DNA of 64,000 nucleotides from an uncultured Acidobacteriaceae bacterium (GTDB lineage Bacteria > Acidobacteriota > Terriglobia > Terriglobales > Acidobacteriaceae), in the NCBI GenBank assembly GCA_903849645.1, contig CAINJJ010000009.1, forward strand, positions 248,001-312,000. The letters run 5' to 3'. The notes beneath the pieces were generated by a model. That model saw only the letters and a list, made by a program, of their open reading frames with translations, searched no databases and was not told the DNA's origin. The translations under genes and the position numbers were made by a program. Each line of letters starts with the position of its first letter. Positions within the stretch are counted from its first letter, which is position 1. Shown here piece after piece: positions 14,393 to 39,242 of this stretch.

Positions 14393-14405
14393 ATAGCAGG
14401 GTGTG

Positions 14406-15668: not shown

Positions 15669-15673
15669 AATGC

Positions 15674-15704: not shown

Positions 15705-15743
15705 CAGCGGCGGCGGGCCGCTCACAACAGACAAGGGGATACG

Positions 15744-16466
15744 ATGGCATCGAATGAAAAGTTGATTGAGATTGAGGACTTGACCAAGATCTTCTACACC
15801 GACGAAGTGGAGACGCACGCGCTCTCCGGCATTCATCTGACGATTGCGCGGGGCGAGTATGTGGCCATGTCGGGACCGTCGGGCTGCGGCAAGTCAACGC
15901 TGCTTTCGATTCTGGGACTGCTGGATACGCCGACGGGCGGCAAGTATCTGCTGAACAACAAGCCGGTGGAGAACCTGAGCTTCGCGGAGCGCTCGCGCAT
16001 TCGCAACCAGGAGATCGGCTTCATCTTCCAGAGCTTCAACCTGATTGGCGACCTGACGGTGGAAGAGAATGTGGAACTGCCGCTGACTTATCGCGCCGGG
16101 ATGCCCGCGCCAGAGCGCAAGAAGCGCGTGAAGGAAGCGCTGGAGCGCGTGAACATGGCGCACCGCATGCGGCACTATCCGGCCCAGTTGTCCGGCGGCC
16201 AGCAGCAGCGCGTGGCCGTTGCGCGAGCGCTGGCGGGCTCGCCGTCGATTTTGCTGGCCGATGAGCCGACAGGCAACCTGGACTCGAAGAACGGCGAGGC
16301 GGTGATGCATCTGCTCGCTGATCTGCATCGCGAGGGCTCCACGATCTGCATGGTGACGCACGATCCGCGGTTTGCCAAGCACGCGCAGCGCGAGGTGCAC
16401 CTATTTGACGGAAAGGTTGTCTCAGAGCAGGAACTGAGAACATTGACAGCCGAAGTGGAGGCCTAG
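15744..16466 (+). CDS. ABC transporter ATPase, MacB/LolD type (first of two)
   Basis: A 240-residue ATP-binding subunit with all motifs intact: Walker A GPSGCGKST (about residues 40-48), Q-loop FIFQSFN, signature LSGGQQQRVAVARAL, Walker B ILLADEP with D-loop GNLDS, and switch His in MVTHD. The sequence is typical of the MacB/LolD/FtsE group that powers mechanotransmission transporters acting on periplasmic substrates instead of classical importers. The ADOP permeases downstream lack an ATPase domain, so this is their likely engine. The next gene starts 2 bp after its stop, indicating tight coupling. Confidence 0.94.
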   Translation: MASNEKLIEIEDLTKIFYTDEVETHALSGIHLTIARGEYVAMSGPSGCGKSTLLSILGLLDTPTGGKYLLNNKPVENLSFAERSRIRNQEIGFIFQSFNLIGDLTVEENVELPLTYRAGMPAPERKKRVKEALERVNMAHRMRHYPAQLSGGQQQRVAVARALAGSPSILLADEPTGNLDSKNGEAVMHLLADLHREGSTICMVTHDPRFAKHAQREVHLFDGKVVSEQELRTLTAEVEA

Positions 16467-16468
16467 TC

Positions 16469-18913: not shown

Positions 18914-18931
18914 TAGGCCCAGGAGCAGGTG

Positions 18932-21505: not shown

Positions 21506-21527
21506 GGCGCTCTTTGGTTGGAGGACA

Positions 21528-24050: not shown

Positions 24051-24082
24051 TGGCACAGGGAACAAAGGAATGGAGCAGCGCA

Positions 24083-24787
24083 ATGATTGAGTTGAAGCAA
24101 GTCGAGCGGAGTTACAAAGCGGGCCCAGCGGAGACGTGGGTGCTGCGCAGGGTTGGGCTGACGATTGAGGAAGGCGAGTTCATCACGGTGATGGGGCCGT
24201 CGGGCGCGGGAAAGTCATCGCTGCTCAATGTGCTCGCGCTGCTCGACGATGGCTGGCAAGGGGAGTACTGGTTTGGCGAGACCGCGGTGCACAAGCTGGG
24301 TCGCAAGCAGCGCGCGGACCTGGCGCGGCAACGCGTCGGCATGGTCTTCCAGAGCTATCACCTGCTGGATGACCTGACAGTCGCGGAGAACATCGACCTG
24401 CCGCTCTCGTACAAGAAGCTCCCCCCCAAAGAACGACAGTCGATGGTGGCTGACATTCTTGATCGCTTTCAAATTGTGGCCAAGAAAGACTTGTATCCCT
24501 CGCAACTCTCGGGCGGCCAGCAGCAGCTTGTGGGCATTGCGCGCGCAGTGGTTCATGCGCCTGCACTGCTGCTGGCCGACGAGCCGACAGGAAACCTGCA
24601 CTCGACGCAGGCGCGGGAGATCATGGAATTGTTTCGCGAACTGAACCGGCAGGGAACCACCATTGTGCAGGTGACGCACTCAGAAGAGAACGCGCGTTAC
24701 GGGAAGCGGATTCTCGAACTGCGCGATGGCTGGATGACGCGCGATGAAACACTGCAAGCAGAGGCAACGGAGGCCCAGGCTCGATGA
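24083..24787 (+). CDS. ABC transporter ATPase, MacB/LolD type (second of two)
   Basis: A 234-residue ATPase with Walker A GPSGAGKSS, Q-loop MVFQSYH, signature LSGGQQQLVGIARAV, Walker B LLLADEP and switch His in QVTHS. The D-loop reads GNLHS, whereas the first ATPase has the usual GNLDS; the D-loop Asp helps couple the two nucleotide sites, so the change may alter cooperativity. ATG 24083 (with GGAG upstream) was chosen; an in-frame start at 24050 would overlap the permease stop. Its stop codon overlaps the TolC-like gene start by 4 bp (ATGA), indicating translational coupling. Confidence 0.93.
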   Translation: MIELKQVERSYKAGPAETWVLRRVGLTIEEGEFITVMGPSGAGKSSLLNVLALLDDGWQGEYWFGETAVHKLGRKQRADLARQRVGMVFQSYHLLDDLTVAENIDLPLSYKKLPPKERQSMVADILDRFQIVAKKDLYPSQLSGGQQQLVGIARAVVHAPALLLADEPTGNLHSTQAREIMELFRELNRQGTTIVQVTHSEENARYGKRILELRDGWMTRDETLQAEATEAQAR

Positions 24788-26730
24788 ACCCACGAAGGAG
24801 ACAATGGTTGAAGCAGATGCAGGCCGCGGCCGTGATTGTGCTGTTGCAGGCGAACATGGCATTGGCTGTTGAGCCCGCGAGCTCAGAGGCTGTGCAGGCA
24901 GGGGCAGGTTCAGCGGCGCCGTTGAGCACGGTTCCGTTTGAGCAGTTGCAGCGGCCGCGCTTGGATCCAATCGATGCGTATCGGGGAACGACAGTGCCTC
25001 CGCCGAGCATGGCCAACTCCGCGCGATTGAGCACACTGGTGCGCGACGGAAAGATCTTTCTCTCGCTGCGCGATGCGATCGACCTGGCGCTGGAGAACAA
25101 CCTCGACATGGTGATTGCACGCTACAACCTGCCTATCGCACAGATGGATGTGCAGCGCACGCAGGCAGGCGGGCAGGTGCGCGGGGTAAACACGGGCGTG
25201 GTGCAGGGAACGCCGGGCGGCGGAGCGGGCGGAGCGGGAGCGGGGACGGGAGCGGGAGGCACCTCGAGCGGCGCGGGCGGAGCAGGAGCGGGCGCTTCAG
25301 GCATTGTGTCGTCAACGCTCGGCACGGGCACTTCGGTTTCGAGCTACGACCCCTATATCACTGCGCAGGCGTATATGGATCATACGTCGCAACTGCTGAC
25401 CAACCGGCAGCTCTACGGCGTACCTGTTTACCACGTCAATACGGTGCTGGCAAACGCGAGTTATTCACAGGCGTTTCCAACGGGGAGTTATCTGCAGGTG
25501 GATTGGAACAACAACCGGACAACATCCAACAGCCCCTACAACAGCTTGAATCCGCAGTTGTTCTCAAGCGCGCGCGTGCTGGTGCAGCAGCAGTTGCTGG
25601 CGGGCTTTGGATTGGGACCCAACCTGCGCTTCCTGCGCATTGCGCGGACCAATCAGAAGATCTCGGACATCGCATTCCGCGCACAGACCATCTCAACGGT
25701 GACGCAGATTTGCGAGCTGTACTGGGACCTGGTGAACGCCTATGATACCGAGCAAGTGGAAGAGCGCTCGGTGAGCTTTGCTGCGGAGACATTGGAGACC
25801 AGTCGCAAGGAGTTTGGCTTGCAGGCGATTCCGGAGATGGAAGTATTGAAGGCTGAGGGAGAGGTGGCAATCCGGCAGCAGGAGTTGACAGTGGCGCGGA
25901 CCAACCTGGAACTGCAGGAACTCTACATGAAGAACGCCATCACGCGCAGTCTCGACGATCCGATTTTGGAAGACATGCCCGTGGTGCCGGTGGATCATAT
26001 CGCGAGCCAGATTGCGCCCATCACGCAACCCGTGCCGGAGATGATTGTGGAGGCACTGAAGAGCCGGACGGAGCTGGCCGAGTCGAGCCTGGACCTGGAG
26101 AACCGCGATCTCAGCCGCAAGAGCGCGCGGAATGCGCTGCTGCCGTCCCTGGGGCTCTATGGATTCTATGCGGGGTCGGGATATGGCGGAGTGCCGAATC
26201 CGCAGTTCGTCAACAGCGGCGGTTCGGTGAGCGCGCCGGGAGGATTTGGCGGCACGGTGGAGAATGCACTGAATAACTCATCGCCCGAGTACCAGGTGGG
26301 CTTTCAGTTGAACGTGCCTTTGCGCAACCGGATTGCCAAAGCGGACCAGTATCGCACGGAGCTCGAGTACCGGCAGTCGCAGGTGTATCTGGAAGAGTTG
26401 AAGAAGCGCATCCGCATCGAGGTGCGCAACGCGCGTTATGCTTTGGAGCAGGGCGCGAGCCGCGTGGAAGCGGCTCGCAAGGCGCGCGACCTGGCATCGC
26501 GGACACTCGATATCATGCAGAAGGAGCAAAAGCTGGGGGCGGGCTCGAATCAGCAGACGCTGAGCGCGGAGCACGATCTGGCGCTGGCGGAGTCGGCGCT
26601 GGTGACTGCGGAGACCGCCTACGAAAAGGCGCGCATCGAGGTGTGGCGGGCAACAGGCTCGGTGCTTGAGCAGTATGGAATCTCAATCGCGGGCGCCAAG
26701 GCAGGCGCTGTGGAGGCCGACCATCCCTAA
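24784..26730 (+). CDS. TolC-family outer-membrane efflux channel
   Basis: A 648-residue outer-membrane factor with a signal peptide (about residues 1-27). Two OEP repeats are visible through their helical stretches (FRAQTISTVTQICELYWDLV; KRIRIEVRNARYALEQGASR) and the late motif NQQTLSAEHDLALAESALV. It is 150-200 residues longer than typical TolC because of an extended N-terminal region with a Gly/Ala/Ser-rich segment at about residues 143-180 (PGGGAGGAGAGTGAGG), which looks like a flexible linker or surface-exposed insertion. It should form the exit duct for the adaptor and permeases encoded upstream. The response-regulator gene starts inside its 3' end. Confidence 0.9.
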   Translation: MNPRRRQWLKQMQAAAVIVLLQANMALAVEPASSEAVQAGAGSAAPLSTVPFEQLQRPRLDPIDAYRGTTVPPPSMANSARLSTLVRDGKIFLSLRDAIDLALENNLDMVIARYNLPIAQMDVQRTQAGGQVRGVNTGVVQGTPGGGAGGAGAGTGAGGTSSGAGGAGAGASGIVSSTLGTGTSVSSYDPYITAQAYMDHTSQLLTNRQLYGVPVYHVNTVLANASYSQAFPTGSYLQVDWNNNRTTSNSPYNSLNPQLFSSARVLVQQQLLAGFGLGPNLRFLRIARTNQKISDIAFRAQTISTVTQICELYWDLVNAYDTEQVEERSVSFAAETLETSRKEFGLQAIPEMEVLKAEGEVAIRQQELTVARTNLELQELYMKNAITRSLDDPILEDMPVVPVDHIASQIAPITQPVPEMIVEALKSRTELAESSLDLENRDLSRKSARNALLPSLGLYGFYAGSGYGGVPNPQFVNSGGSVSAPGGFGGTVENALNNSSPEYQVGFQLNVPLRNRIAKADQYRTELEYRQSQVYLEELKKRIRIEVRNARYALEQGASRVEAARKARDLASRTLDIMQKEQKLGAGSNQQTLSAEHDLALAESALVTAETAYEKARIEVWRATGSVLEQYGISIAGAKAGAVEADHP

Positions 26731-28090
26731 CAAGACAGAGCGCATTCGGATACTGGTTGCCGACGATCAACCCGACGTTCTGGACGCAGTGGATCTGCTG
26801 CTGCGACCGCAGGGGATTGATGTGGACTGCGTGCGCTCACCGCAGCTTCTGCTGGAGGCGCTGGGGCATCGCGAGTATGACGTGGTGTTGATTGACTTGA
26901 ACTACACGCGCGACACGACCTCGGGGCAGGAAGGGCTGGACCTGCTGGAGCGCATCCGCGAGTTTGACGCGCGGCTGCCGGTGATTGTGATGACGGCGTG
27001 GGGCAACATTGATCTGGCGGTTGAGTCGATCAAGCATGGAGCGCGGGATTTTCTGCAGAAGCCGTGGGAGAACGAGCGGCTTGTCTCGCTGGTGCGCGTT
27101 CACGCCGAGCTGCGGCAGGCGCTCAGGCGCGCGCGGCAACTGGAGATGGAGAATCGCCTGCTGCGTTCGGAAGGGATGCCGGAGTTTGTGGCCGGCGCGC
27201 CCTCGATGCAGCCGGTGCTGGAGCTGATTGCGCAGGTGGGCCCATCGGACGCGAACGTGCTGATCACGGGCGAGCATGGCACGGGCAAGGAGATTGTGGC
27301 CAAGCTGCTGCACGCCGCTTCGCCGCGCGCGCGCATGGCGCTGGTGGCGGTGAACGCAGGCGGACTGCCCGAGGGCACGTTTGAGAGCGAGATATTCGGG
27401 CACGTGAAAGGCGCATTCACCGATGCGCGCACGGACCGCATCGGGCGCTTCGAACTGGCGAATGGCGGCACGCTGTTTCTGGACGAGATTGCCAACGTGC
27501 CGCTACGGCAGCAGGCCAAGCTGTTGCGCGTTCTGGAGACGGGCGAGCTGGAGCGGGTAGGGTCATCGCAGACGCGGCGCGTGGATGTGCGGGTACTTTC
27601 GGCCACCAACGCTGCGTTGGATGAAGAAGCCAAGAACGGCGCCTTCCGCGAAGACCTGCTGTTCCGCATTAACACGGTGGAGATTCACCTGCCGGCATTG
27701 CGCGAAAGGCGCGAGGATATTCCGCTGCTGGCGCAGCACTTTCTGGGGCGCAACCGCATACGCTATCGCAAGCAGGTGGAGGGGTTTTCACAGGGAGCGA
27801 TGCAGCAGATGATGCAGTACGCGTGGCCGGGAAATGTGCGCGAGCTGGAGCATGCGGTGGAGCGTGCGGTGCTGCTGTGCCGCGGCAACGAAATTGAGAG
27901 CGCCAACCTGGCCATCTCGCCTTCGCGTGCGTCCACGCAGTCGTTTGAGAACATGAGCATCGACGAGGTGGAGGCGCTCTTGATTCGCAAGGTGCTGCGT
28001 CGCTGCGACGGCAACATTTCGCAGGCCGCCGAAGGTCTGGGGCTGAGCCGCGCCGCGCTCTATCGGCGCATTGAAAAATATGGCCTATGA
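26675..28090 (+). CDS. NtrC-type sigma-54 response regulator of the efflux operon
   Basis: A 471-residue regulator: receiver domain (DDQP near residue 30, phospho-acceptor D74 in VLIDLNYTRD, switch Lys in LQKPW), AAA+ domain (Walker A GEHGTGKE, Walker B GGTLFLDEI, and R-finger region), and a C-terminal Fis-type helix-turn-helix (NISQAAEGLGLSRAALYRRI). The sigma-54 contact loop reads GAFTDA instead of the canonical GAFTGA. The start overlaps the TolC-like gene by 56 bp (ATG 26675; a TTG at 26666 is also possible). The likely target is the sigma-54-type element before the adaptor gene, giving autoregulation of the whole operon. Confidence 0.9.
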   Translation: MESQSRAPRQALWRPTIPNKTERIRILVADDQPDVLDAVDLLLRPQGIDVDCVRSPQLLLEALGHREYDVVLIDLNYTRDTTSGQEGLDLLERIREFDARLPVIVMTAWGNIDLAVESIKHGARDFLQKPWENERLVSLVRVHAELRQALRRARQLEMENRLLRSEGMPEFVAGAPSMQPVLELIAQVGPSDANVLITGEHGTGKEIVAKLLHAASPRARMALVAVNAGGLPEGTFESEIFGHVKGAFTDARTDRIGRFELANGGTLFLDEIANVPLRQQAKLLRVLETGELERVGSSQTRRVDVRVLSATNAALDEEAKNGAFREDLLFRINTVEIHLPALRERREDIPLLAQHFLGRNRIRYRKQVEGFSQGAMQQMMQYAWPGNVRELEHAVERAVLLCRGNEIESANLAISPSRASTQSFENMSIDEVEALLIRKVLRRCDGNISQAAEGLGLSRAALYRRIEKYGL

Positions 28091-29432
28091 ACGCGCACGA
28101 AGACGGCGCCGCTCGGCTGTGCGCCGGGCGTGGCTCTATTGCCTGCTGCTGGGGCTGCCCGCGCTGATCTTGTGCGCGCTTGGGCTGCTGGCGCAACATA
28201 TCTCTGCTGGTCTGGCGATCATGCTGATGGGCGGGCTGATGCTCTATCTCGCTCTGGTGGCGGGGGCGCTGATTGAGAGCATGATTCGCCCGCTGCAGAC
28301 GCTCTCCAACGTGGTGTCGTCGCTGCGCGAGGGCGACTATTCGTTTCGCGCGCGGGGCGCGGGCGGGCAGGATGCACTGGGCGAGTTGGCCGCTGAGGTC
28401 AACGCGCTTGCGGACCTGCTGCAGAAGCAGCGCGTGCGGTCGCTTGAGGCCACGGCGCTGCTGGCGCGGATTCTGGAAGTCATGCACGCGCCGCTGTTTG
28501 CCTTTGACCGCGACGACCTGCTGCAACTGGTAAATCACGCCGGCGTGCAACTGCTGGGCCGGTCGCAGGCGCGGTGCTTCGGGCACACTGCACATGAGCT
28601 GGGACTGGAAGGGCTGCTTGCCTCGGCGGACCAGACGATTCACTCCTTTGGCACAAAGCCAAGCCGATGGCTGCTGCGCAAGGCAGTCTTCCGGCAGGAC
28701 GGCATACCGCACACGCTGCTGCTGCTGGCCGACGTCAGCCTTCCGTTGCAGGAAGAGGAGCAGGCAGCATGGAAGCGATTGATTCGGGTGCTGGGACACG
28801 AACTCTCGAATTCGCTGGCGCCCATCAAATCCATCGCGGGGAGCCTGCTTGCGCGCGTCGAAAGCATGTCAGGCGATGACACGGTGCAGCGCGACTTTCG
28901 CCGCGGGCTAGGCGTGGTGGAGAGCCGGGCGGACGCGTTGCATCGATTTGTGCAGTCGTACAGACAACTGGCGCAACTGCCTCCGCCCAAGCCGCGCGAA
29001 GTGGTGCTGGGCGCGTTGCTGGAGCGGGTGGCGCTGCTGGAACAGCGGCTGCCGGTGGAGTTGGAGCAGGGTCAGCCTGTGGTGCTTTACGCCGACGCCG
29101 ACCAACTGGAGCAGATGCTGATCAACCTGCTGGCCAACGCAGTGGACGCGGCGCTGTGCAACGGCGCCAGGCCGGTGCGCATGGCGTGGCGGCTGGATGA
29201 TTCATCCGCGTGGATCACGATTGAAGATCGCGGTTTGGGGATTGCCAACACGGAGAATCTCTTTGTGCCCTTCTATACCACCAAGCCCACAGGCAGCGGC
29301 GTGGGACTGGCCCTGGCGCAGCAGATTGCGCGCGCGCACGGCGGGCAGATTCAACTGGTGAACCGCGAGGATGGAGAAGGAGCGCGCGCCATTGTGCGGC
29401 TGCCGCTGGCGCAGGGCTTGCCGGAGCAATAA
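28080..29432 (+). CDS. NtrY-like sensor histidine kinase of the efflux operon
   Basis: A 450-residue membrane kinase: two adjacent transmembrane helices (about residues 15-65) with almost no periplasmic loop, a HAMP-like segment (IRPLQTLSNVVSSLREGDY), a PAS-like domain (ILEVMHAPLFAFDRDDLLQL), the phospho-acceptor helix LGHELSNSLAPIKS, and an ATPase domain with LINLLANAVDAAL, EDRGLGIAN and GSGVGLALAQQI. The lack of an external sensor domain suggests it senses membrane or cytoplasmic cues. ATG 28080 overlaps the regulator stop by 11 bp, so the two are translationally coupled. It is the last gene of the operon; a terminator follows. Confidence 0.92.
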   Translation: MAYERARRRRRSAVRRAWLYCLLLGLPALILCALGLLAQHISAGLAIMLMGGLMLYLALVAGALIESMIRPLQTLSNVVSSLREGDYSFRARGAGGQDALGELAAEVNALADLLQKQRVRSLEATALLARILEVMHAPLFAFDRDDLLQLVNHAGVQLLGRSQARCFGHTAHELGLEGLLASADQTIHSFGTKPSRWLLRKAVFRQDGIPHTLLLLADVSLPLQEEEQAAWKRLIRVLGHELSNSLAPIKSIAGSLLARVESMSGDDTVQRDFRRGLGVVESRADALHRFVQSYRQLAQLPPPKPREVVLGALLERVALLEQRLPVELEQGQPVVLYADADQLEQMLINLLANAVDAALCNGARPVRMAWRLDDSSAWITIEDRGLGIANTENLFVPFYTTKPTGSGVGLALAQQIARAHGGQIQLVNREDGEGARAIVRLPLAQGLPEQ

Positions 29433-29534: not shown

Positions 29535-30932
29535 TTACCAGGCGTCCGCACTGGCCTTCTTCTGTTGCTTTGACCAGAGATAGTCGGCGATGCGGTTGAT
29601 GTCTTCGTCGCTGAGCACATGCTTCCACGCGGGCATGTAAAGCGGCGGAGCGGCGCCGGCGGGGTTATCCATCGGAGGCACCCGCCCGTTGCGGATGACG
29701 GCGATGACTTCGTCCTTGGTGTAGTCGTCGGAGACGTGGAGCAGGGAGGGCACTTCGCCGCCCTGCGCGTTGGGATTGGGGACGCCGCCCTGCAACTCGG
29801 TTCCGTGGCAGCCAACGCAGCCGAAGCGGGCGAAGTCCTGCTTGCCGGCTTCGATGGCGATGTCCGCGGGAGTGAGCGAGCGGGTCTTCTTGGAGAGGAT
29901 CAACTGCGCATCCTCCGCGGTGGCCGTGGTGAGGAAGGCGATGAGCGCCTTGCGTGAGTTGACGTCGAGATCGTAGACCGGCATGGAACTGCCGGGGTAA
30001 ACGAGTTCAGGGTTCACGAGCTGCTCATCGAGCCATTCCGGTGAGTGCTTGCCGGTGACGCCGAGAAGGTCGGGGCCGGTCTTGGCGCCAACGCCGCCGA
30101 TGTTATGGCATGCGATGCAGTTCTTCTCGTCGAAGAGCTGGCGGCCGTAGACGGGGCCGGGGATGAGGCGGACGCTGGAGTAGAACGAACCCATGTCTTC
30201 GCTGGTGAGCGAGAGCATGTAGTAGGTGAGGGCGCGCGCCTGGTCCTTGGTGAAGTGGAAGTTGGGCATGGCCGAGCCGGCGGAGACGGCATTCGGCGTG
30301 AGGAAGTGCTTTTCAAGCCACTCGGGAGCGCGGTGGTTCGCGCCTTCGCTGGTGAGGTCGGGGCCGATGCTGCCGCCCACGCCGTTGAGCTTGTGGCAGC
30401 CGCGGCAGCCCTGCGTCTCAAAGAGGTGACGGCCTTCAGTCAGTTCGGGGACGCCGGGGACTTCGCCTTCCTTGTGGCAGCGGCCGCAGGAAGCGCGAAT
30501 ATAGTCCTTGGCGAGCAGCGGGTTGGGCCAGAACTCGACGTTGCCGTGGGCGCCCGCGGTATCGGTGGCCAGACCCTGGCCTCCGTGGCAGATGGTGCAG
30601 CCGAACTTGGAGGGGATGTGCGGTCCGAGCCCCTGGTGATAGCGGAAGGGCTCGGGCGCATCCTTCATGGTCGGGTCTTCCACGCCGAGATGGCACGTGG
30701 TGCAGCGGTCAACACGCTGCAGGCCGGTGAGCATGACCTGATGAATCTCAGGCGGCGTGGCCAGCACCGCGGCCTTGGTAATGGCGTTGGGCTCGGCCTG
30801 GGCTTCAAGTTGGAGGTAGTTATGCTGGAAGGTCTTCCACGAAGGCGTGTTGGCCTGCCAGGCGGCCGCCACAATCAAGGCCAGCGCCAGAATGCTCAGC
30901 GCGAAGAAGGTCTGTTGAAGTCTGCGTTCCAT
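29535..30932 (-). CDS. Membrane-anchored six-haem cytochrome c subunit
   Basis: A 465-residue protein with one N-terminal membrane anchor (about residues 8-25) and six CxxCH haem sites: CTTCH 77-81, CTICH 112-116, CGRCH 149-153, CRGCH 176-180, CIACH 272-276 and CVGCH 372-376. The last three domains look like separate class-I cytochrome c folds with downstream Met ligands (GSAMPNFHF, GSSMPVYDL). Its start codon overlaps the cytochrome b stop (TAATG), so it is almost certainly the c-type subunit of the Rieske/b complex, replacing cytochrome c1 or f. It would pass electrons between the complex and periplasmic carriers. It is the last gene of the cluster. Confidence 0.92.
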   Translation of the reverse strand: MERRLQQTFFALSILALALIVAAAWQANTPSWKTFQHNYLQLEAQAEPNAITKAAVLATPPEIHQVMLTGLQRVDRCTTCHLGVEDPTMKDAPEPFRYHQGLGPHIPSKFGCTICHGGQGLATDTAGAHGNVEFWPNPLLAKDYIRASCGRCHKEGEVPGVPELTEGRHLFETQGCRGCHKLNGVGGSIGPDLTSEGANHRAPEWLEKHFLTPNAVSAGSAMPNFHFTKDQARALTYYMLSLTSEDMGSFYSSVRLIPGPVYGRQLFDEKNCIACHNIGGVGAKTGPDLLGVTGKHSPEWLDEQLVNPELVYPGSSMPVYDLDVNSRKALIAFLTTATAEDAQLILSKKTRSLTPADIAIEAGKQDFARFGCVGCHGTELQGGVPNPNAQGGEVPSLLHVSDDYTKDEVIAVIRNGRVPPMDNPAGAAPPLYMPAWKHVLSDEDINRIADYLWSKQQKKASADAW

Positions 30933-32221
30933 TACTCAGCCCCCCCGACAACATGCACCCATGGTGGAACCAGTGCCCAGCCCGGGCCGCGGAAGAATGT
31001 TCCCACGACGATCAGGACCAGGTTGATCACGACAAAGAGTGTGAACAGCCAGATCGCCCACTTGCGGTCGGAAGGGCGGCGGCTGGGATTGCGGTCAATA
31101 TAAGGAATGGCCAGCAGGGCCAGCACCATGAGCGCCGGGGCCACTACGCCACCGAGCATCGCCGAATGGCTGACCAGTTCCTGCAGTCCGAGGAAGTACC
31201 AGGGAGCCTTGGCCGGGTTGGGGGTCTTGGCTGGATTGGCCAACTCCTCCAGCGGGGCGTGGAAGAAGAGCGACATCATCATGATGCCCGTGACCGTGAC
31301 CATGAGGGCCACCGCCTCGCGCACAAAGGCGTAGGGATAGGAGAAGACCGTGTCCTCTTCTTCCTCGGGAGTGATGGTCTCAAAGATGGGCTTGCCGGTG
31401 ACGACTTCCATGAGGCCGTAGGTCTTGGTGCTGGAAGCGGCGGAGGCCTTGAGGGGCGCGGCAGAGGCGGCTGGGGCGCCGATGGTGACCAGGGGCGCGG
31501 CCTTGGGAGGAGCGAGCTTCCAGATGGGCCGGGACAGGCCGCCGTCCTTGCGGACGCGCCAGAAGTGGACGATGGTGAACAGGATCATGGCCGCGGGAAG
31601 GACGGCAACGTGGAGCACGTAGAAGCGCACCAGAGCGGCCTCGCCAACCGAGTGGCCGCCCAGCAGCCACTCGCGCAACTGGCCGCCCACGAGCGGGGCG
31701 TAGCTGCCGATGTTGCTGCCGACGGTGATGGCCCAGTAGGCCAGTTGATCCCAGGGAAGCAGGTATCCGGTGAAGGAGAGGCCCAGGGTGAGCAGGAAGA
31801 GGAAGACGCCGACGACCCAGTTGAACTGGCGGGGCTTCTTGTATGAGCCGGTATAGAACACGCGGCACATATGAAGGAAGACGCAGACGACCATGCCGTG
31901 CGCCGCCCACCGATGCATGCCTCGCAGGAAGGGACCCATGAAGACGACAAACTCAAGGTCCTTCATGTCCTGATAAGCCTGCGGCGGGAAGGGCCGGTAG
32001 TAGACCATCAGCACAATGCCGGTGGTGACCAGGATGAGGAAGAGAAAGAAGGTGATGAAGCCCAGGTAAAAGGAATGCCTGAACTTCATGTTCTCTTTCT
32101 TCACTTTGGCCGGATGGATGTGCAGCCACACGTTGAGAAAGACCAGTTCGGACTTTCCCTTGTCGGTGGACAGCGGATCCCGCCGGACGATCGATTGCCA
32201 GATTTCACGGAAGAGATTCAT
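30932..32221 (-). CDS. Cytochrome b (b6-type, fused N- and C-terminal domains) of a Rieske/b complex
   Basis: A 429-residue integral membrane protein with about eight helices. The N-terminal half contains the haem-b histidines ([20 protein letters not shown] and [13 protein letters not shown]...VHFWRV) and the motif [15 protein letters not shown]. The second His pair in the fourth helix is spaced by 14 residues, as in b6-type proteins. A hydrophilic Ala/Pro-rich linker (about residues 233-275) leads to a subunit-IV-like part, where the Qo PEWY motif is replaced by [11 protein letters not shown], as in deep-branching fused cytochromes b. An in-frame GTG at 32227 would overlap the Rieske stop; ATG 32221 was chosen. 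It oxidises or reduces membrane quinone. Confidence 0.93.
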
Positions 32222-32223
32222 CG

Positions 32224-32685
32224 TCACACCATCAATCGGTAAGAGGAGGGAACAACCTTGTCCTTGTCGACGCGCAACTGGCCGTCGCGGGCCAGCGTCA
32301 CTTCAAACCAGTCCAGTGCACGGGGAGCGGGACCATGCTGCGCAGCGCCGTCAGCGCCAAAAACGCTGCCATGGCAGGGGCAATGGAACTTCTGGTCGCT
32401 CTGAAAGTGAGCGACGGTGCAGCCCAGATGGGTGCAGACGGCGCTGGCGGCGGAGAAGCCCTTCTCGCGGTCGCGGAAGATGAATATCTTTTCCTCGACG
32501 AGAAAGGTGGGGGCGCCAAAGGGGAAGTCCCCAGGAGTGCCGATCTTGAAGGCCTGTGGCGGCTCATAGAACACGTTCGGCTTGAGGAATCGGAGGATGG
32601 CAGCGAAGCTGACCCCGAGCGCCGAAACCAGGGCGCCCACACCGACGGTGCCCCAGCTTAATTTGAAAAAGCTTCTTCGATTCAT
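32224..32685 (-). CDS. Rieske [2Fe-2S] iron-sulfur subunit
   Basis: A 153-residue Rieske protein with both cluster-binding boxes: CTHLGC (Cys84, His86; Cys89 disulfide) and CPCHGS (Cys102, Cys104, His105). The N-terminus has a twin-arginine motif (NRRSFFK) followed by one hydrophobic helix, so it is probably folded in the cytoplasm and exported by Tat while remaining anchored. The length and the compact cluster domain are as in b6f-type complexes. It is followed by cytochrome b within 2 bp and preceded by the flavoprotein gene 12 bp upstream. Confidence 0.95.
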
Positions 32686-32697
32686 TCCCTTGCTCCC

Positions 32698-34533
32698 CTA
32701 TTCAAAGACTTCGCGTTCCTGTTGTTCCAGGGCTTCCATGGTGATGGATCCGGTTGGGCAGCGCTCGGCGCAGAGGCCGCAGCGGATGCACTTTTCTTCG
32801 TTCTTGATGATGGCTCCGGCCTGGCCTGCCTTGAGTTCGTCGGCCGGCACACCGTAGCGCGATTGAATCAGCGCATCGTAGCGGGCGTCACCGGAGACCT
32901 GGGCAAGATCCACGAGGCGCAGGCAGTTCTCCGGGCATACATCCACGCAACCGGCGCAGAGAATGCACTTGGAACCGTCAAAGATGGTGTTCACCTGGCA
33001 TTTGAGGCAGCGGAGTCCCTCGGCGCGTCCCTGCTCCTCGCCAAAGCCGAGTTCGACTTCAGCAATGCCGATACGGCGGTTGGCTGCAAGGACTGGCATG
33101 ACCTGGCGCGGGGTGCTGAGGAATCCGCGGGGCATCTCCCAGTTGGGCATGATGCGGAAGCGGCTCAGGACAGTCTTTTTGGTCTTGCCGCTGAGGAATA
33201 CGTGAATGGAGCGGGCGGCCTTGTGTCCGTTGGCCACGGCTTCCACCAGGATGCGCGGGCCAAAGGCGACATCGCCGCCGGCGAAGACGCCGGGGGCGGT
33301 GGTCATGAGGTTTTCATCGATCTTGAGAATGCCGCGCGGCGTGACCTGCACACCCTCGTCGCCGCCGAGGAAGGAGAGATCCGCCTGCTGGCCGATGGCC
33401 AGAATGACGCTGTCGCAGGGGATGATCTTTTCCTCGTCGCTGAAGGCGGGGTTGAAGCGGCCGTTCTCGTCGAAGACGTTGATGCAGCGGCGCACCTTGA
33501 GTCCGGTGACGACGCCGTTTTCGCCCACGATCTCCTTGGGCCCCCAACTGTTTTCAACGGTGATGCCCTCGTGCTCGGCCTCGTCCACCTCGCCTTTCCA
33601 GGCGGGCATCTGGGCGCGGGACTCGAGGGAGACGAGTTCCACCTCCTGGGCGCCGGAGCGCATGGCCATGCGGGCCGCGTCAAAGGCCGGTTGCAGGCTC
33701 TTCTCCTCTTCGTCGGCGGCCGAATCGCCGGGCTCGACCACGAGGCGGACCGCGGCGCGGGCCACGTCGATGGCCACGTTGCCGCCGCCCACCACCACCA
33801 CGCGCTTGCCGAGGTTGATTTCCTGTCCGAGGTTGACGTTGATGAGGAAGTCGATGCCGTTGTAGACGCCGCCCAACTGGGCGCCGGGGATATTGAGCTC
33901 GCGGCCCTTGTTGAGGCCGGTGGCCAGCAGAACCGAGTCGAATTTGGAACGGAGATCGGCGAAGGAGATGTCGCGGCCAAGAGTCACGCGGGTGTGCAGC
34001 GTGACGCCCATGGCGAGGATGCTGTCCACTTCCATCTTGATGATTTCGCGCGGGAGGCGGAACTGGGGAATGCCGAGATAGAGCATGCCGCCGGGCACGG
34101 GCGCGGACTCGAAGACCTCGACGGTATAGCCGAGCAGGGCGAGGTCGTGCGCGCAGGTGAGGCCGCAGACGCCGGCGCCCACGATGGCGATCTTCTTGTT
34201 GCGCTTCGGCGCGGGCGCAAGCTTCCTGCGGGCCGGGTCGTGGCCCTGGCCGAGGTTGTGGCGGTCAGTGGCGTAGCGCTTGAGAGCGCAGATGGCGATG
34301 GGTTCGTCAATCTTGCCGCGGCGGCAGTTGTCTTCGCAGGGGTGGGCGCAGATGCGGCCCAGTACGTAGGCAAATGGGTTGGGGGCGCGCGCAAGCAGAT
34401 ACGCTTCCTCGTCCTGGGAGATCCCGATGGCTTGCACGTAGCGGCCGCATTCAGTGTGAATGGGGCAGGCAGTGCGGCAGGGAATATTCTTGTCGAAATA
34501 TTCCTGGTCCGGGACGGTAATGGAATAGCGCAT
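32698..34533 (-). CDS. GltD-like FAD/NAD(P) oxidoreductase with added ferredoxin domains
   Basis: A 611-residue cytoplasmic flavoprotein. The N-terminal Cys-rich domain (PCRTACPIHTECGRY, CAHPCEDNCRRG) resembles the Fe-S domain of GltD and DPYD. Two dinucleotide folds follow: FAD site IVGAGVCGLTCAHDLALLG near residue 118, and NAD(P) site VVVGGGNVAIDVAR near residue 245. The C-terminal 110 residues add two 4Fe-4S motifs (CILCAGCVDVCPENC; CIRCGLCAERCP). Normal glutamate-synthase small subunits are about 470 residues and sit beside gltB; here the neighbour is a Rieske/b complex. The likely role is electron transfer between NAD(P)H or ferredoxin and the quinone/cytochrome chain, not glutamate synthesis. 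Confidence 0.88.
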   Translation of the reverse strand: MRYSITVPDQEYFDKNIPCRTACPIHTECGRYVQAIGISQDEEAYLLARAPNPFAYVLGRICAHPCEDNCRRGKIDEPIAICALKRYATDRHNLGQGHDPARRKLAPAPKRNKKIAIVGAGVCGLTCAHDLALLGYTVEVFESAPVPGGMLYLGIPQFRLPREIIKMEVDSILAMGVTLHTRVTLGRDISFADLRSKFDSVLLATGLNKGRELNIPGAQLGGVYNGIDFLINVNLGQEINLGKRVVVVGGGNVAIDVARAAVRLVVEPGDSAADEEEKSLQPAFDAARMAMRSGAQEVELVSLESRAQMPAWKGEVDEAEHEGITVENSWGPKEIVGENGVVTGLKVRRCINVFDENGRFNPAFSDEEKIIPCDSVILAIGQQADLSFLGGDEGVQVTPRGILKIDENLMTTAPGVFAGGDVAFGPRILVEAVANGHKAARSIHVFLSGKTKKTVLSRFRIMPNWEMPRGFLSTPRQVMPVLAANRRIGIAEVELGFGEEQGRAEGLRCLKCQVNTIFDGSKCILCAGCVDVCPENCLRLVDLAQVSGDARYDALIQSRYGVPADELKAGQAGAIIKNEEKCIRCGLCAERCPTGSITMEALEQQEREVFE

Positions 34534-34695: not shown

Positions 34696-35103
34696 CTAGT
34701 GCTGCGAGGCCTTGAGCTTTTCGATCTCCTCATCGGAGAGCGAGGGGAAGAAGGCCTTGATGTTCTTCTCCTTGCGGTTTTCCTGGTCGTAGGCAAGGAA
34801 CTCATAGATGGTCTTGCCCTGGGCGTCGCTGATGCCGGAGTTGGGCTTGTGCATCATGCGCTTGACGTAGCGGCTCCACTCGGGGGCGGTCATGGTGGTG
34901 TTGATGGGGCGCGCGATGGTGTGGCACTTGGCGCACTTGTCCACAAACACCTTGTAGCCCTTCTGCTGTTCTGCCGGGTACTTGGAGACGTCGACCTTGT
35001 CGGGTCCCTTGTCCTGGGGCAGGTTCACGTTGCTGCTCTGCGCGGCCACAAACAGCGGGAGCGAAAGGGCAGCGGCGGCCAGAATGCGGATTGCCTTGTA
35101 CAT
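34696..35103 (-). CDS. Periplasmic monohaem cytochrome c
   Basis: A 135-residue exported protein with a signal peptide (about residues 1-21, ending VAAQ), one haem site CAKCH (57-61), and probable axial methionine at RMMHKP (83/84). The second half (SDAQGKTIYEFLAYDQENRKEK) is typical of small class-I cytochromes c. The ATG at 35103 has a strong ribosome binding site (AGAGGAGA); the frame also offers a GTG at 35124 overlapping the upstream gene. It starts 14 bp after the barrel-cytochrome gene, so the two are probably co-translated, and it is the natural soluble shuttle between the outer-membrane protein and the inner-membrane complex. Confidence 0.9.
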   Translation of the reverse strand: MYKAIRILAAAALSLPLFVAAQSSNVNLPQDKGPDKVDVSKYPAEQQKGYKVFVDKCAKCHTIARPINTTMTAPEWSRYVKRMMHKPNSGISDAQGKTIYEFLAYDQENRKEKNIKAFFPSLSDEEIEKLKASQH

Positions 35104-35117
35104 TTTGAATTCTCCTC

Positions 35118-36476
35118 TTACCACATGAAGCGGAAATCAAGTTTGAACAGCTTGTCGGTTGAGCCGATGCCGGCGAGCGGGTCGGCGTCGTGCTCCTGGT
35201 TGTAGCTGGCGCGAAGCACCACGTTGCCTTCCTGCGTCAGGGCGTGCTCCAGGCCGAGGCCAAAAGCATGTGTATGGACGGTCGGCAGGGATCCAACCTT
35301 TTGGGTGCCGCGGTCCAGACGAGCCATGACAACCGTCCCTGTCTTGAGATAGTAGTCCGCTTCGCCGCGATAGGTGTCGGCCGAGTAGTTGGTCATGGGC
35401 GTGACGAGGTCGAAGCGGTAGTCGTCGTGGCTGTGGATGTAGCCGCCCAGCAGGTCGAGCTTGTCGAAGAAGAGATAGTTGCCGAAGGCGCCCACGCGAT
35501 AGAAGGTGGGACGGTAGGTGAACGGGTTGCCACTGCCATCCGTCGAGTTCTGGTCCTTGGAGCCGCGGTAGAACATTGCGGTGACGCCGCCATCGGGGCC
35601 AAACCAGTAGTCGGCGTCCGCCCATACATCCTTGGAGTTCTTGGTGGATGCGTTGATGATGGTGCTTCCGTCCGCCGCCAGGCCGTTGGTCACCTTGGCC
35701 GAAACTGCGAAGATATTCTTGAAGTAGGGCGAAGCCCAGGTGTAGCCCACGTCCACGCCGACCGGCGCCTGATCAAGCGAGAAGCCGATGGGATCACCCT
35801 GGGTGAGCGTGTAAGCCGGGTCCGGGAAGAGGTTATAGAACATCGCTGCGCGTGTTCCTTCACCTTCCTGCATGTGAATCTGGCCGCCCTTGATGAAGTA
35901 GCTCGAGTTGGCCTTGCCGCCGGTCCACACGCCGAAGCCCTGCTCCAGGCCGTTGCTGCCGTCCTGGTACATCTCATAGTGGCCGAAGTAAGAGAAGCCC
36001 GTCTCGGGAACCGCGCCGGCGACGAAGAACGCCGCTTCGTCGAGGTTGAAGCTCGATGTAGTGGAAGTGGCCGTCGGAGAAAGTGCGAGTGTGTGGCCAA
36101 TCTTCTGGTAGGCATTTCCCTTGGGGGCTTGAAATACGGGTGTGACGCCGGTCTCAGTAATGGTCTTGTCGTCGGTGACGCTGGCCTGGAAGAGAACCGC
36201 GAACGAGTTGGTCAGGCTGAACTTGATGTCCTTGTCCAGCGCGGATACCTTGGGCGCGGGCTTGGTGCCGTCCATCTCGTCCGGAGGCATGCGATAGCCG
36301 AGGCGCTTGAACTCGTAGCCGGTCTTGTTCAACGCGGGGGGAATGGTGTGGCAGGTGTAGCACTTCACACCGTACTTGCGGGCAAACGCGGGAAGCGCGT
36401 TGCCGGTTTGGGGGATGAGCAAGATCAGGGCGAACACTGACAGCAGTGCTTTTACAACGAAGGTTGAAGGTTTCAT
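35118..36476 (-). CDS. Fused monohaem cytochrome / outer-membrane beta-barrel (Cyc2-like architecture)
   Basis: A 452-residue protein. A signal peptide (residues 1-27) is followed at once by a small haem domain, PAFARKYGVKCYTCHTIPP (Cys39, Cys42, His43), then LNKTGYEFKRLGYRMP. The pattern FAR-x(4-5)-CxxCH-x(3)-P-x-LN-x(2)-G-x(2)-F-x(3)-GY is the N-terminal signature of fused cytochrome-porins such as Cyc2. The remaining 380 residues are alternating beta strands (FGHYEMYQDGSNGLEQGFG, AFGNYLFFDKLDLLGGYIHS) ending in LFKLDFRFMW, a typical C-terminal barrel signal. One haem inside a barrel lets such proteins move electrons across the outer membrane. The true donor or acceptor is unknown. ATG 36476 was chosen; the longer frame lacks an export signal at its start. 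Confidence 0.78.
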   Translation of the reverse strand: MKPSTFVVKALLSVFALILLIPQTGNALPAFARKYGVKCYTCHTIPPALNKTGYEFKRLGYRMPPDEMDGTKPAPKVSALDKDIKFSLTNSFAVLFQASVTDDKTITETGVTPVFQAPKGNAYQKIGHTLALSPTATSTTSSFNLDEAAFFVAGAVPETGFSYFGHYEMYQDGSNGLEQGFGVWTGGKANSSYFIKGGQIHMQEGEGTRAAMFYNLFPDPAYTLTQGDPIGFSLDQAPVGVDVGYTWASPYFKNIFAVSAKVTNGLAADGSTIINASTKNSKDVWADADYWFGPDGGVTAMFYRGSKDQNSTDGSGNPFTYRPTFYRVGAFGNYLFFDKLDLLGGYIHSHDDYRFDLVTPMTNYSADTYRGEADYYLKTGTVVMARLDRGTQKVGSLPTVHTHAFGLGLEHALTQEGNVVLRASYNQEHDADPLAGIGSTDKLFKLDFRFMW

Positions 36477-36577: not shown

Positions 36578-37978
36578 TCATTCCCCGATGCGTACACCCG
36601 CCTGCGGAATGGATTCCCCAGTTGAGGAGTCCTTCTCTCGCCGGAGCAGGGTATAAAACGTCTTGCGGTCAACCCCGGCCTCCCGCGCCGCGGCGCTCAC
36701 GTTGCCACCGCAGCGGGCCAGCACCGCCTGAGCGTAAGAGAGCTCGAAGCTGGCCAGATACTGCTCGCGGGCATCTTTCCAGGGAAGCGCTGAGAGGTTG
36801 CTGGAGACCTCGACGGGCTGCGACTCCTCGGCCATGTCTTCCGGGCCAAGAACGCCGCCGGGGTGGAGAGCGGTGAGCCGCTCCATCACGTTTTTCAACT
36901 GGCGCACGTTGCCCGGCCATCGCTCGCGCAGCAGCCCCTCATAAAACTGGGGCGAGCCGGAGAGGCTCTTGCCGTAGCGGCGAGAGAAGCGCTCCAGAAA
37001 AAAGCGGGCGAGGTGAGGGATGTCGTCGGGCCGCTCGCGGAGAGGCGGCAGCTTGACCGTGACCACGCTGAGCCGGTAGTAGAGCTCCTCGCGAAAGGTC
37101 CCGGCCTTGATCTTGGCCGGCAGGTCCTGGTTGGTGGCGCAGAGGATGCGGCACTCGACGCGGACGGTGCTCAGCCCGCCGAGCCGGCGCAGGGCCCGCT
37201 CTTCGACAAAGCGAAAGAGGCGTGTCTGCAACTCAACGCCGAGGTCGCCGATTTCGTCCAGAAAGAGCGTGCCGCCATCGGCGGACTCGATGAGGCCCTT
37301 CTTGGTGCGTTCGGCCCCGGTAAAGGCGCCGCGTTCATAGCCGAACAGCTCGCTCTCGATCAGGGAGCCTGGCATGGCGCTGCACTCCACGGGGACAAAC
37401 GGGCCATCCTTGCGGCGGCTCTGGTTGTGGATGAAACGGGCCATGACCTCTTTGCCGGTGCCGCTCTCGCCCAAAATCATGACTGTAGCGTCGGTGGCGG
37501 CGGCGCGTCGGCATTTTTCTATCTGGTCGAGCATGGCGGGGCTGCGGCTTTGCGCCCCGTCGGTCTCGCCGAGGGACTCCAGGCGCCCTTTGAGGGCCTC
37601 CACCTCGTGCTCCAGGCTGGCGTGAGAGAGAGCGCGCTTGACCACCAGGAGAAGATCTTCGCGCTTGAAGGGCTTTTGCAGATAGTCGAACGCGCCATTG
37701 CGCATGGCCATCACAGCGCTCTCGACCGAGCCAAAGGCGGTGAGGAAGACGATGGGGAGGCCGGGATGGACCTCGTGAACCCGCGCGAAGACCTCTTCTC
37801 CCGACATGCCGGGCATGCGCACGTCGAGCAGGACAAGGTCAGGCGGGCTGGCCAGGCAATCGGCGAGGCCCTTGACGGGATCCTCAAACACCGAGACAAC
37901 CACGCCGGGCAAGCGCAGCATGCGCTGGATATTTTCGCCGAGGGCGGCTTCGTCGTCGATGACCAGAATGCGGCTCAA
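36578..37978 (-). CDS. NtrC/ZraR-type sigma-54 response regulator of the cytochrome cluster
   Basis: A 466-residue regulator: receiver domain (DDE at 8-10, phospho-acceptor D52 in LVLLDVRMPGMSG, Lys in YLQKPF), AAA+ domain (Walker A GESGTGKE, canonical GAFTGA loop, Walker B GGTLFLDEIGDL, PPLRERPDDI), and Fis-type DNA-binding C-terminus (GNVSAAAREAGVDRKTFYTL). The only in-frame start is a TTG at 37978 that overlaps the kinase stop codon (TTGA), so expression should depend on translation of the kinase. It lies directly upstream of the barrel-cytochrome gene and probably activates it; I did not find a convincing sigma-54 site in the 101-bp spacer. Confidence 0.92.
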   Translation of the reverse strand: MSRILVIDDEAALGENIQRMLRLPGVVVSVFEDPVKGLADCLASPPDLVLLDVRMPGMSGEEVFARVHEVHPGLPIVFLTAFGSVESAVMAMRNGAFDYLQKPFKREDLLLVVKRALSHASLEHEVEALKGRLESLGETDGAQSRSPAMLDQIEKCRRAAATDATVMILGESGTGKEVMARFIHNQSRRKDGPFVPVECSAMPGSLIESELFGYERGAFTGAERTKKGLIESADGGTLFLDEIGDLGVELQTRLFRFVEERALRRLGGLSTVRVECRILCATNQDLPAKIKAGTFREELYYRLSVVTVKLPPLRERPDDIPHLARFFLERFSRRYGKSLSGSPQFYEGLLRERWPGNVRQLKNVMERLTALHPGGVLGPEDMAEESQPVEVSSNLSALPWKDAREQYLASFELSYAQAVLARCGGNVSAAAREAGVDRKTFYTLLRREKDSSTGESIPQAGVRIGE

Positions 37979-39051
37979 TCGGCGCCTCCTGAGGCGAACC
38001 AGTGGTAGGGCTGGCCGCGGGTAAAGCGGGCCGGGGGCAGCTCGACGATGAAACTGGCCCCTCCACCGTCCCTGGTTTCGTAGCGGATGCGGCCATCATA
38101 CATATCGAGCAGGCTGGCGGCCAAAAACAGGCCCAGGCCCAGGCGCTCGCGACCGCTGCTCTGCGAAACGAAGGGCTCAAAGATGTGCTCGCGCAGGTTT
38201 TCCGGGACGCCGGGACCGTTGTCTTCAATGCGCGCCACAACCTTGGCGCCGGCGGTGCGGTAGGAGTCCAGACGCACCCAGATGGCGCCGCCCTCCTGGC
38301 CGGAGAGCGCCTGCAGGGCGTTGGCGATCAAACCACGCACCACTTCGCCCACAACATGCTCCGGCACATCGACATGGGGCGCCTCGCCAAGCTCCTCGAC
38401 AATGTGGACACCCTGAGCAACAGCCAGCGGGCCAAGCGCCGCCATGGCGTCTTCCAGGGCGCGGTGCGGCGCTGAGGCGTCAAAGACCTCGCCGCCGCGC
38501 TCGCGGCGCAGGGCCTGCAGCAGCGTGGTGGCGATGCGGCTCATGTAGTTGGCTTCCTTGAGCATGCGCTCCAGGTCGGCGCAGAGCTCGCGGTCCTCCC
38601 TGCGTTCGTCCAGCAGCACCTCAAGGCGGCCGGCGACGATGGCGAGGGGATTGTTGAACTCGTGCATGAATCCGGCGCTGAATTGGCCCAGAAGGGTGAG
38701 CTGATGGGAGAGGCGCGCCTGCTGGTCGGCTGCGCGCAGCTCTTCACGCAACTGGGCGGTGCGCTGCCGGACAGTCTCCAACTGAAGCTTGAGCTGCTCC
38801 GCGAGTACCTCGGCGTTGCTGGCGCGGGTGTGGAACCAGCCGCGCATCCAATGAAGGTAAACCAGGGCGGGGACGGGCGCCATGAGAATGGTGAGGACCG
38901 AAGCCGCCACAAGAATTGCCGGGAAATGGGGGAACATCCATTGCGAGATCGCCCAGAAAGGCATCGCCCAGACCCCGCTGGCCCACAGAAGAGGAGATAT
39001 CCGCGAGGCGGGTGCTTTGGGGACTTGCGGCGCTTTCGGCTCTCCGGGCAT
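37975..39051 (-). CDS. Sensor histidine kinase paired with the cytochrome-cluster regulator
   Basis: A 358-residue kinase with two transmembrane helices (about residues 18-70), a coiled-coil linker rich in Glu/Gln/Arg (AEQLKLQLETVRQRTAQLRE), phospho-acceptor region FSAGFMHEFNNPLAIVAGRL, and ATPase domain with VRGLIANALQAL, EDNGPGVPENL and GLGLFLAASLLDMYDG. No extracytoplasmic sensor domain is evident. ATG 39051 was preferred over upstream starts because the extension is Pro/Arg-rich and unlike a protein. Its stop overlaps the regulator start. The 191 bp upstream (39052-39242) shows nothing recognisable. Confidence 0.9.
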   Translation of the reverse strand: MPGEPKAPQVPKAPASRISPLLWASGVWAMPFWAISQWMFPHFPAILVAASVLTILMAPVPALVYLHWMRGWFHTRASNAEVLAEQLKLQLETVRQRTAQLREELRAADQQARLSHQLTLLGQFSAGFMHEFNNPLAIVAGRLEVLLDERREDRELCADLERMLKEANYMSRIATTLLQALRRERGGEVFDASAPHRALEDAMAALGPLAVAQGVHIVEELGEAPHVDVPEHVVGEVVRGLIANALQALSGQEGGAIWVRLDSYRTAGAKVVARIEDNGPGVPENLREHIFEPFVSQSSGRERLGLGLFLAASLLDMYDGRIRYETRDGGGASFIVELPPARFTRGQPYHWFASGGAD

Positions 39052-39242
39052 ACCGCTCAAGTGTATCGGTCCTGGGCGGATGGCCGGTAGCCGGGGCGGC
39101 GCGTAGCCCCAAGGCGGCGGCCAGATGCGGAGCTGGCTGCCGTGGCACATCAAGGCTCATCCGCTGGAGGATGCCGTTGTAATAGCGATTCCGGCCCGCT
39201 GGGAACCCCGCTCGGCAACCTGCATGAGGGGTCCGTGCGGGG

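Follow-up and report, generated by a model that had tools for sequence, protein, structure and literature searches.

A Cyc2-like fused cytochrome-porin encoded with a Rieske/cytochrome b/NAD(P) complex in Acidobacteriota

Proteins of the Cyc2 family are recognised by the motif AXPXFAR[QK][TY], a single CXXCH, a PXL element and a length of at least 365 residues; the three members of tested function treated in the same source are Fe(II) oxidisers (Keffer et al., 2021, PMC8406198). Cyc2-like genes serve as markers of Fe(II) oxidation, finds in heterotrophic phyla are read likewise, and homologues from Acidobacteriota metagenome-assembled genomes (MAGs) are already in print (PMC9769843), while the words Cyc2 and porin are absent from the main text of a study of peat Acidobacteria (PMC9599518).

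In Acidithiobacillus ferrooxidans, Cyc2, a small carrier, a bc-type complex and a putative NAD(P)-binding protein lie in one path, for which either direction of flow has been proposed (PMC2754497; PMC8790237). The Fe(II)-induced petI operon of this species encodes cytochrome c4, the putative NAD(P)-binding protein SdrA, a Rieske protein, cytochrome b and cytochrome c1 (PMC2754497), and its Cyc2 has itself been proposed as a ferric reductase (PMC8790237). The anammox bacterium Kuenenia stuttgartiensis has complexes in which an NAD(P) oxidoreductase is joined with a b6-like cytochrome b and a cytochrome c of six or eight haems, and that are proposed to split the electrons of quinol between NAD(P)+ and a favourable acceptor (PMC12954380). 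Our search of the open full-text literature—which leaves most subscription papers and bioRxiv outside—found no report of a cytochrome-porin linked to an NAD(P)-bearing Rieske/cytochrome b complex. Here, we describe a locus that brings the two together in one operon.

The window, a stretch of 64,000 nucleotides from an uncultured Acidobacteriaceae bacterium (contig CAINJJ010000009.1), had been assigned to an acidobacterium in a first-pass annotation made from the sequence alone; we retain that assignment because the nearest named records are Acidobacteriaceae MAGs. Eight genes run on the minus strand from 39153 to 29535, in the order histidine kinase, NtrC-type regulator, cytochrome-porin, monohaem cytochrome c, NfnL/GltD-like oxidoreductase, Rieske protein, cytochrome b and hexahaem cytochrome c (Table 1). 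Pfam gave HisKA and HATPase as the only domains of the histidine kinase and no named sensor domain. A single −24/−12 sigma-54 pattern, sought in the roughly 120–150 bases upstream of the porin, occurs in one of 32 close loci and is absent from the window, so that control by the adjacent NtrC-type regulator is without sequence support. Convergent with the operon, the plus strand at 14403–29432 encodes, as judged by eye, ABC-type permeases and ATPases, a TolC-like protein and a second NtrC-type regulator/kinase pair.

Table 1. Features of the cytochrome-porin operon in window coordinates, in order of transcription.
Feature	Position	Strand	Basis
Sensor histidine kinase	37975..39153	-	Pfam; conserved in orthologous regions
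NtrC-type (sigma-54-interacting) response regulator	36578..37978	-	Domain search; conserved in orthologous regions
Cyc2-like fused cytochrome-porin, 452 aa (P0001)	35118..36476	-	Reading frame, motif, model, profile
Signal-peptide-like N-terminus, residues 1-26	36399..36476	-	Hydrophobic stretch by eye; conserved column A27
Haem-c domain, residues 27-61, ALPAFARKY...CYTCH...PALN..G..F...GY	36294..36398	-	Sequence motif
Single CXXCH of the porin haem-c domain	36348-36362	-	Sequence motif
16-stranded beta-barrel, residues 92-451 (predicted)	35124..36203	-	AlphaFold2 model and fold comparison
Periplasmic monohaem cytochrome c (CAKCH), frame overlapping the porin stop	34696..35124	-	Motif; adjoins the porin in 11/11 orthologous regions
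NfnL/GltD-like NAD(P)/FAD oxidoreductase, 611 aa, ferredoxin-type clusters at C-terminus	32698..34533	-	Best solved relative 9bov/9bp5, E 4.2e-96
Rieske [2Fe-2S] protein	32224..32685	-	Best solved relatives 9rk4, 9rk3 (anammox)
Cytochrome b, 431 aa, N-terminal (b6) and C-terminal (subunit-IV) parts in one chain	30932..32227	-	Sequence
Hexahaem cytochrome c (six CXXCH), last operon gene	29535..30932	-	Motif count

The porin, P0001, is read on the minus strand from 36476 down to 35118, the plus-strand frame being interrupted by stops; the first-pass annotation had recognised a Cyc2-type motif at its N-terminus and left the strand unstated. An alternative upstream ATG at 36581 would lengthen the protein to 487 residues, but we took 36476 as the start because orthologues begin at the matching position. 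All the published sequence features of the family (PMC8406198) can be read in it: AXPXFAR[QK][TY] as ALPAFARKY at residues 27–35, the single CXXCH as CYTCH at 39–43 and, at the expected spacing, PXL as PAL at 47–49, in a protein well above the lower length bound; PAFARKYGVKCYTCH covers residues 29–43. The annotated continuation P-x-LN-x2-G-x2-F-x3-GY is there at residues 47–61 (P47-A-L49-N50-K-T-G53-Y-E-F56-KRL-G60-Y61), and the protein does end in FRFMW. The joint motif P.FAR[QK][TY]...C..CH...P.L arose in 0 of 20,000 shuffles of P0001, and eleven orthologues with 63–79% identity were read in other genomes, which together rule out a chance frame or artefact. Searches of Pfam, NCBIfam and PDB sequences with P0001 returned no match, so these databases supply no family name for the porin.

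An AlphaFold2 model built from an alignment of 51 sequences (pLDDT 78.3, pTM 0.76) predicts 16 long strands, counted from the listed elements, between residues 92 and 451, in keeping with the barrel-like strands seen in the first pass; residues 22–49 and 51–53 fall below pLDDT 50, so the N-terminal haem part is poorly modelled. Fold comparison (Foldseek/VIA-align) placed the model close to OprP (2o4v; Z 25.7, rmsd 3.2, 310 aligned) and OprO (4rjw; Z 25.6, rmsd 2.9, 306 aligned), the entries named for Cyc2 of Mariprofundus (PMC8406198), although these are tied for best with other general porins such as VhChiP (Z 25.8) and PorB. Neither program lists a solved Cyc2, an absence that carries no weight. 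The concern that the best matches might be to non-haem porins alone thus holds for the solved structures listed for the barrel and fails for the protein as a whole, for the haem domain is confirmed separately by sequence; its conservation rules out an ordinary non-haem porin. The likeness to Cyc2 of Mariprofundus ferrooxydans PV-1 extends to the motif, the single CXXCH, the PXL spacing, a length above 365 residues, 16 strands and the OprO/OprP fold (PMC8406198). Motif, length, predicted strands, porin fold and a profile match to proteobacterial Cyc2-like proteins thus support the identification of P0001 as a Cyc2-type fused cytochrome-porin, as its layout and 452-residue length had suggested. 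A model of a distant type of the porin (L139, 12 sequences) reached a pLDDT of 49.5 and therefore leaves the barrel of that type unproven.

Relatives of the porin are widespread in the phylum. At E 0.001, 154 of 298 genomes of the host's own order match P0001; the matches comprise close orthologues, a second group with roughly 37–42% identity and many that align in the haem domain only. In a profile search of the phylum, 115 of 396 genomes matched. Among the best 80 of 144 confirmed matches in named records, the 75 loci belong to Acidobacteriaceae, Bryobacterales, other Acidobacteriota and one Rokubacteriota, and records with bog, palsa or fen in their titles account for 13 of the 32 closest. 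Profile–profile alignment (hhalign) matched 364 columns of the window's family with the distant type from acidobacteria (probability 99.0, E 2.5e-18). It also joined the family to six plasmid-borne proteobacterial proteins (probability 97.6, E 3.4e-12) by way of the haem domain, a homology to named Cyc2-like proteins that takes in the haem domain and the start of the barrel only.

The porin found no relatives on plasmids when P0001 or the Rokubacteriota protein (L136) was the query, or in a scan of viral contigs; a plasmid search with L140 gave three weak matches, and these led to the proteobacterial set. Its members come from Caballeronia, Paraburkholderia, Ideonella, Methylocystis, Acidiphilium, Acidithiobacillus ferrooxidans YQ-N3 and Polymorphobacter (L159–L165); one of the genes (L164) is annotated in two pieces, and tcuB lies close to the Cyc2-like gene in the A. 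ferrooxidans and A. multivorum plasmids. We know of no biochemical test of any of the six proteins. Most of these plasmid genes of seven genera stand beside a c-type cytochrome gene, which is the next annotated gene downstream in six of the seven loci and lies upstream in Paraburkholderia. Rieske, cytochrome b and NAD(P) genes were found in none of the six loci counted, five of which are cut by short flanks, whereas the porin of the window is tied to such a complex. Although the haem domains are homologous, the sequence after the haem site differs: PPALN..GYxFKRLGYRMPPD in the window and FPELTxxGRxFKLxGYT in the proteobacterial set. On an 85-row tree, the window porin is not part of the clade formed by the six proteobacterial proteins, with which one acidobacterial sequence (L191) stands; the only proteobacterial relatives on this tree are the plasmid-borne ones. 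The Cyc2 part of the locus is of a kind already known in Acidobacteriota, and the surroundings are the unusual part.

Those surroundings most resemble the anammox complexes. When the Rieske protein was compared with PDB sequences, Kuste4569 (9rk4, E 4.2e-24) and Kustd1480 (9rk3, E 5.6e-19) ranked first and second of 77 solved sequences matched, so that among solved structures its nearest relatives are the Kuenenia proteins. By eye, its CPCHGSVF keeps the serine and has phenylalanine for tyrosine, the same combination as in Kustd1480 (PMC12954380). The 611-residue NAD(P) module is NfnABC-like, its best solved relatives including 9bp5, the entry that DALI found for the anammox module (PMC12954380). 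A multihaem cytochrome c, with six CXXCH in the window and eight in the distant loci L139, L206 and L207, replaces cytochrome f/c1, just as hexa- and octahaem cytochromes accompany a b6-type cytochrome b in Kuenenia (PMC12954380).

There are also differences. Cytochrome b and subunit IV are separate in the Kuenenia complexes but form one chain in the window, the split arrangement recurring in the distant locus L206; and the passages of the Kuenenia account that we drew on describe no outer-membrane cytochrome-porin, which the window operon has (PMC12954380). An extra haem b is proposed for the anammox complexes, with a histidine of cytochrome b at the dimer centre as its ligand (PMC12954380). 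His36, near the N-terminus, is invariant in our alignment of 34 cytochromes b, which holds no Kuenenia sequence. The usual quinol-site glutamate seems absent from the window cytochrome b (30932–32227). This chain reads differently at the place where bc1 complexes usually have PEWY. A. ferrooxidans differs too: its cyc2 and pet genes lie in separate operons (PMC2754497; PMC8790237) and its SdrA is a short-chain dehydrogenase rather than an NfnL-like flavoprotein (PMC2754497). Elsewhere in the genome, NrfD, SCO1 and COX1 share a cluster, in which NrfD and SCO1 near COX1 may represent an alternative-complex-III-like chain, and there are two further cytochromes b; on these grounds we regard the operon complex as accessory. 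RuBisCO, the one carbon-fixation marker sought, was not found in the genome.

The link between porin and complex is conserved. The eight-gene operon is complete in 11 of 11 orthologous regions, the small cytochrome c follows the porin in all 20 regions read, and 27 of the 28 uncut close named loci carry porin, NAD(P) module, Rieske protein and cytochrome b together (L080–L111, n = 32, four truncated at contig ends). Only L110 departs from this; it is the most distant of the close loci (48% identity) and has neither Rieske protein, cytochrome b nor NAD(P) module. Median identity is highest for the NAD(P) module (86.8%) and cytochrome b (85.4%), and lowest among the structural genes for the porin (65.0%).

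Specificity can be read from the side of the cytochrome b. Of the 298 genomes of the order, 17 encode a full-length cytochrome b with 82% identity or more, and the porin slot holds a cytochrome-porin in 17 of 17, a count that includes the window's own genome and one (G135) whose operon is split over two contig ends, so that its slot was deduced. Twelve slots hold the close type; five (G172, G220, G077, G219, G135) hold another porin, with 36–38% identity to P0001 and accompanied by an additional cytochrome c; the slot thus persists even where the porin differs. These loci (L044, L048, L049, L223, L222/L225), in which the close porin gives way to the 36–38% type and an extra cytochrome c in an otherwise conserved operon, represent an exchange of the outer-membrane part. 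In an eighteenth genome (G163), a cytochrome b fragment marks a copy of the operon, porin included, that is decayed or misassembled (L224, 7133–10437): parts of kinase, regulator, porin, cytochrome b and hexahaem c lie close together and the middle is missing.

A more distant lineage with split cytochrome b (49–58% identity) behaves similarly: 63 of its 74 genomes have a cytochrome-porin no more than 7 kb away in the same orientation—32 from a first list and the rest from a second, better-fitting profile search of the 42 genomes missed, a search not extended to all control groups. The 74 rows are the split cytochrome b matches listed between E 5.5e-86 and 4.9e-68, excluding weaker and unlisted rows. 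The porin comes first in 50 of the 63 and cytochrome b in 13; at many of the added loci the match is confined to the haem domain, with E near 1e-6, and three of the 11 genomes without a near porin (G218, G235, G288) have their cytochrome b within 1 kb of a contig start. In two control groups of other cytochromes b, taken from the same search, a listed porin lay nearby in 0 of 35 rows and in 1 of 23 rows, of which 22 and 19, respectively, are in genomes that have a listed porin. This comparison drew on 144 porin rows, an earlier control having used only part of the list; the sole positive (G211) was translated across a stop codon and is possibly one of the split type.

The link can also be counted from the side of the porin. 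The 7.5 kb downstream of 113 porin loci hold Rieske protein, cytochrome b and NAD(P) module in 55 cases, Rieske and cytochrome b alone in three, a partial set in three and none in 28, with 24 loci cut. The porin can therefore occur without the complex, as 28 of the 89 uncut loci have no Rieske/cytochrome b within that distance. The 113 loci, a few of which appear in both genome sources (for example L150/L198 and L147/L173), were selected with a motif regular expression, which makes motif percentages among them circular; L140 is counted as cut, though NAD(P), Rieske and cytochrome b genes lie upstream of its porin. The tree mentioned above shows 11 changes of context label and thus places the linkage in several distant branches, that of L191 included. 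It retains 85 of 114 rows (four fragments or duplicates dropped, 25 close relatives thinned), was made by a quick method with a warning of long branches and had no shuffled control.

Loci of the distant type have a cupredoxin in place of the small cytochrome c (PF00127 in L206; L139, L207 and L210 by eye). In G135, a cupredoxin-like protein, seen by eye, follows the hexahaem cytochrome gene (L222, 6134–6799), as if both kinds of carrier, cupredoxin and cytochrome c, could belong to the operon. At the same locus (L222, 6950–11340), two small cytochromes c, a Rieske protein and a cytochrome b of only 28% identity come after a second-type porin in the same orientation, and we read this as a link of the second-type porin to a different Rieske/cytochrome b complex. 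Stand-alone porins of the second type occur as well (L112, L113, L117, L120), followed by a dihaem cytochrome c of 203–259 residues and no Rieske protein or cytochrome b.

We think it probable, judging from the sequence family, the operon and its specificity, that the operon encodes a conduit between the outside of the cell and the Rieske/cytochrome b/NAD(P) complex, whichever way electrons travel. The cytochrome-porin would carry single electrons across the outer membrane, along a path from an extracellular partner through the porin haem, the monohaem cytochrome c and the hexahaem cytochrome c to Rieske/cytochrome b in the inner membrane and to quinone, with the NAD(P)/FAD/iron–sulphur module on the cytoplasmic face.

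As to direction, the first-pass annotation had named Fe(II) as a possible electron donor, with another extracellular partner as the alternative; neighbours that form a quinol- and NAD(P)-linked complex fit export at least as well as import. One genus that bears on the question, Acidicapsa, is an acidobacterium. Fe(III) reduction at low pH has been reported for heterotrophic acidobacteria, and cultures of Acidobacterium capsulatum and Acidicapsa reduce iron (PMC8790237). Because of these iron-reducing cultures, the ferric-reductase proposal for Cyc2 and the greater use that a heterotroph has for an outlet, we slightly prefer the outward direction, Fe(II) oxidation with inward flow ranking only a little lower. 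We thus tentatively favour a conduit from quinol to iron(III) or humics, while rating it somewhat below an even chance. In this version, quinol would be bifurcated in the way put forward for the anammox complexes: one electron would leave by way of the Rieske protein, hexahaem cytochrome c, cytochrome c and porin for an acceptor of high potential, iron(III) or humic matter for instance, and the other would move through the haems b and iron–sulphur clusters to NAD(P)+. Against it, the three tested members of the Cyc2 family oxidise Fe(II) (PMC8406198); the anammox bifurcation is itself a proposal (PMC12954380); and the porin occurs without the complex in 28 of 89 uncut loci, while the window cytochrome b is one chain and that of anammox is split.

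A stronger form of the outward reading, possible though less probable, makes this a respiratory apparatus of its own in Acidobacteria: a quinol-bifurcating Rieske/cytochrome b complex would have the cytochrome-porin as its outlet, so that electrons passed to extracellular iron(III) or humics would pay for NAD(P)H.

The same conduit could run inward, and this is the alternative that survives best, a genuine possibility to which we give a minority share. The porin would then be a true Fe(II) oxidase, and its electrons would pass to the cytochrome c and on to an aa3-type oxidase, or uphill to quinone and NAD(P)H as with petI. It has every family feature open to comparison, petI offers a comparable layout for uphill flow (PMC2754497), the genome has a COX1 oxidase, and the cupredoxin (PF00127, L206) between porin and complex in the distant type recalls rusticyanin. 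Uphill flow is, however, without evident use in a genome in which RuBisCO—the only such enzyme sought—was not found; and the operon has no oxidase gene, while straight flow to O2 needs no quinol-linked complex beside the porin.

It is improbable that the conduit faces a partner other than iron, such as humic quinones, partner cells or an extracellular enzyme, or that it is a redox sensor feeding the histidine kinase. A monohaem site by itself confers no specificity, the kinase and regulator belong to the conserved set, and the bog, palsa and fen records are from places rich in humics; but nothing in the sequence points to another partner, and the kinase shows kinase domains only. About as improbable, in our judgement, is an ordinary respiratory complex whose porin is merely co-transcribed, with a structural haem and a role in solute uptake or another outer-membrane task: the barrel does match general and phosphate-selective porins, the porin is the least conserved structural gene and over a quarter of its uncut loci have no complex downstream, but all 17 genomes have a porin in the slot, exchanged in some for another of the same haem-motif kind, near porins number 0 of 22 and 1 of 19 in the controls, a small cytochrome c or cupredoxin-like protein accompanies the porin, and a separate NrfD/COX1 cluster exists in the genome.

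In Acidobacteriota, where the cytochrome-porin is tied to a quinol- and NAD(P)-linked complex, electrons may flow in a direction other than, and possibly opposite to, the one assumed for Cyc2 markers, in which case maps of iron oxidation drawn from such markers would have to be revised. Acidobacteria of peat and soil would gain a testable route of extracellular electron exchange, and the anammox-type Rieske/cytochrome b complex would gain a plausible high-potential partner outside anammox. Should the bifurcating version prove true, extracellular respiration would be coupled to electron bifurcation in one operon, and in several distant acidobacterial lineages.
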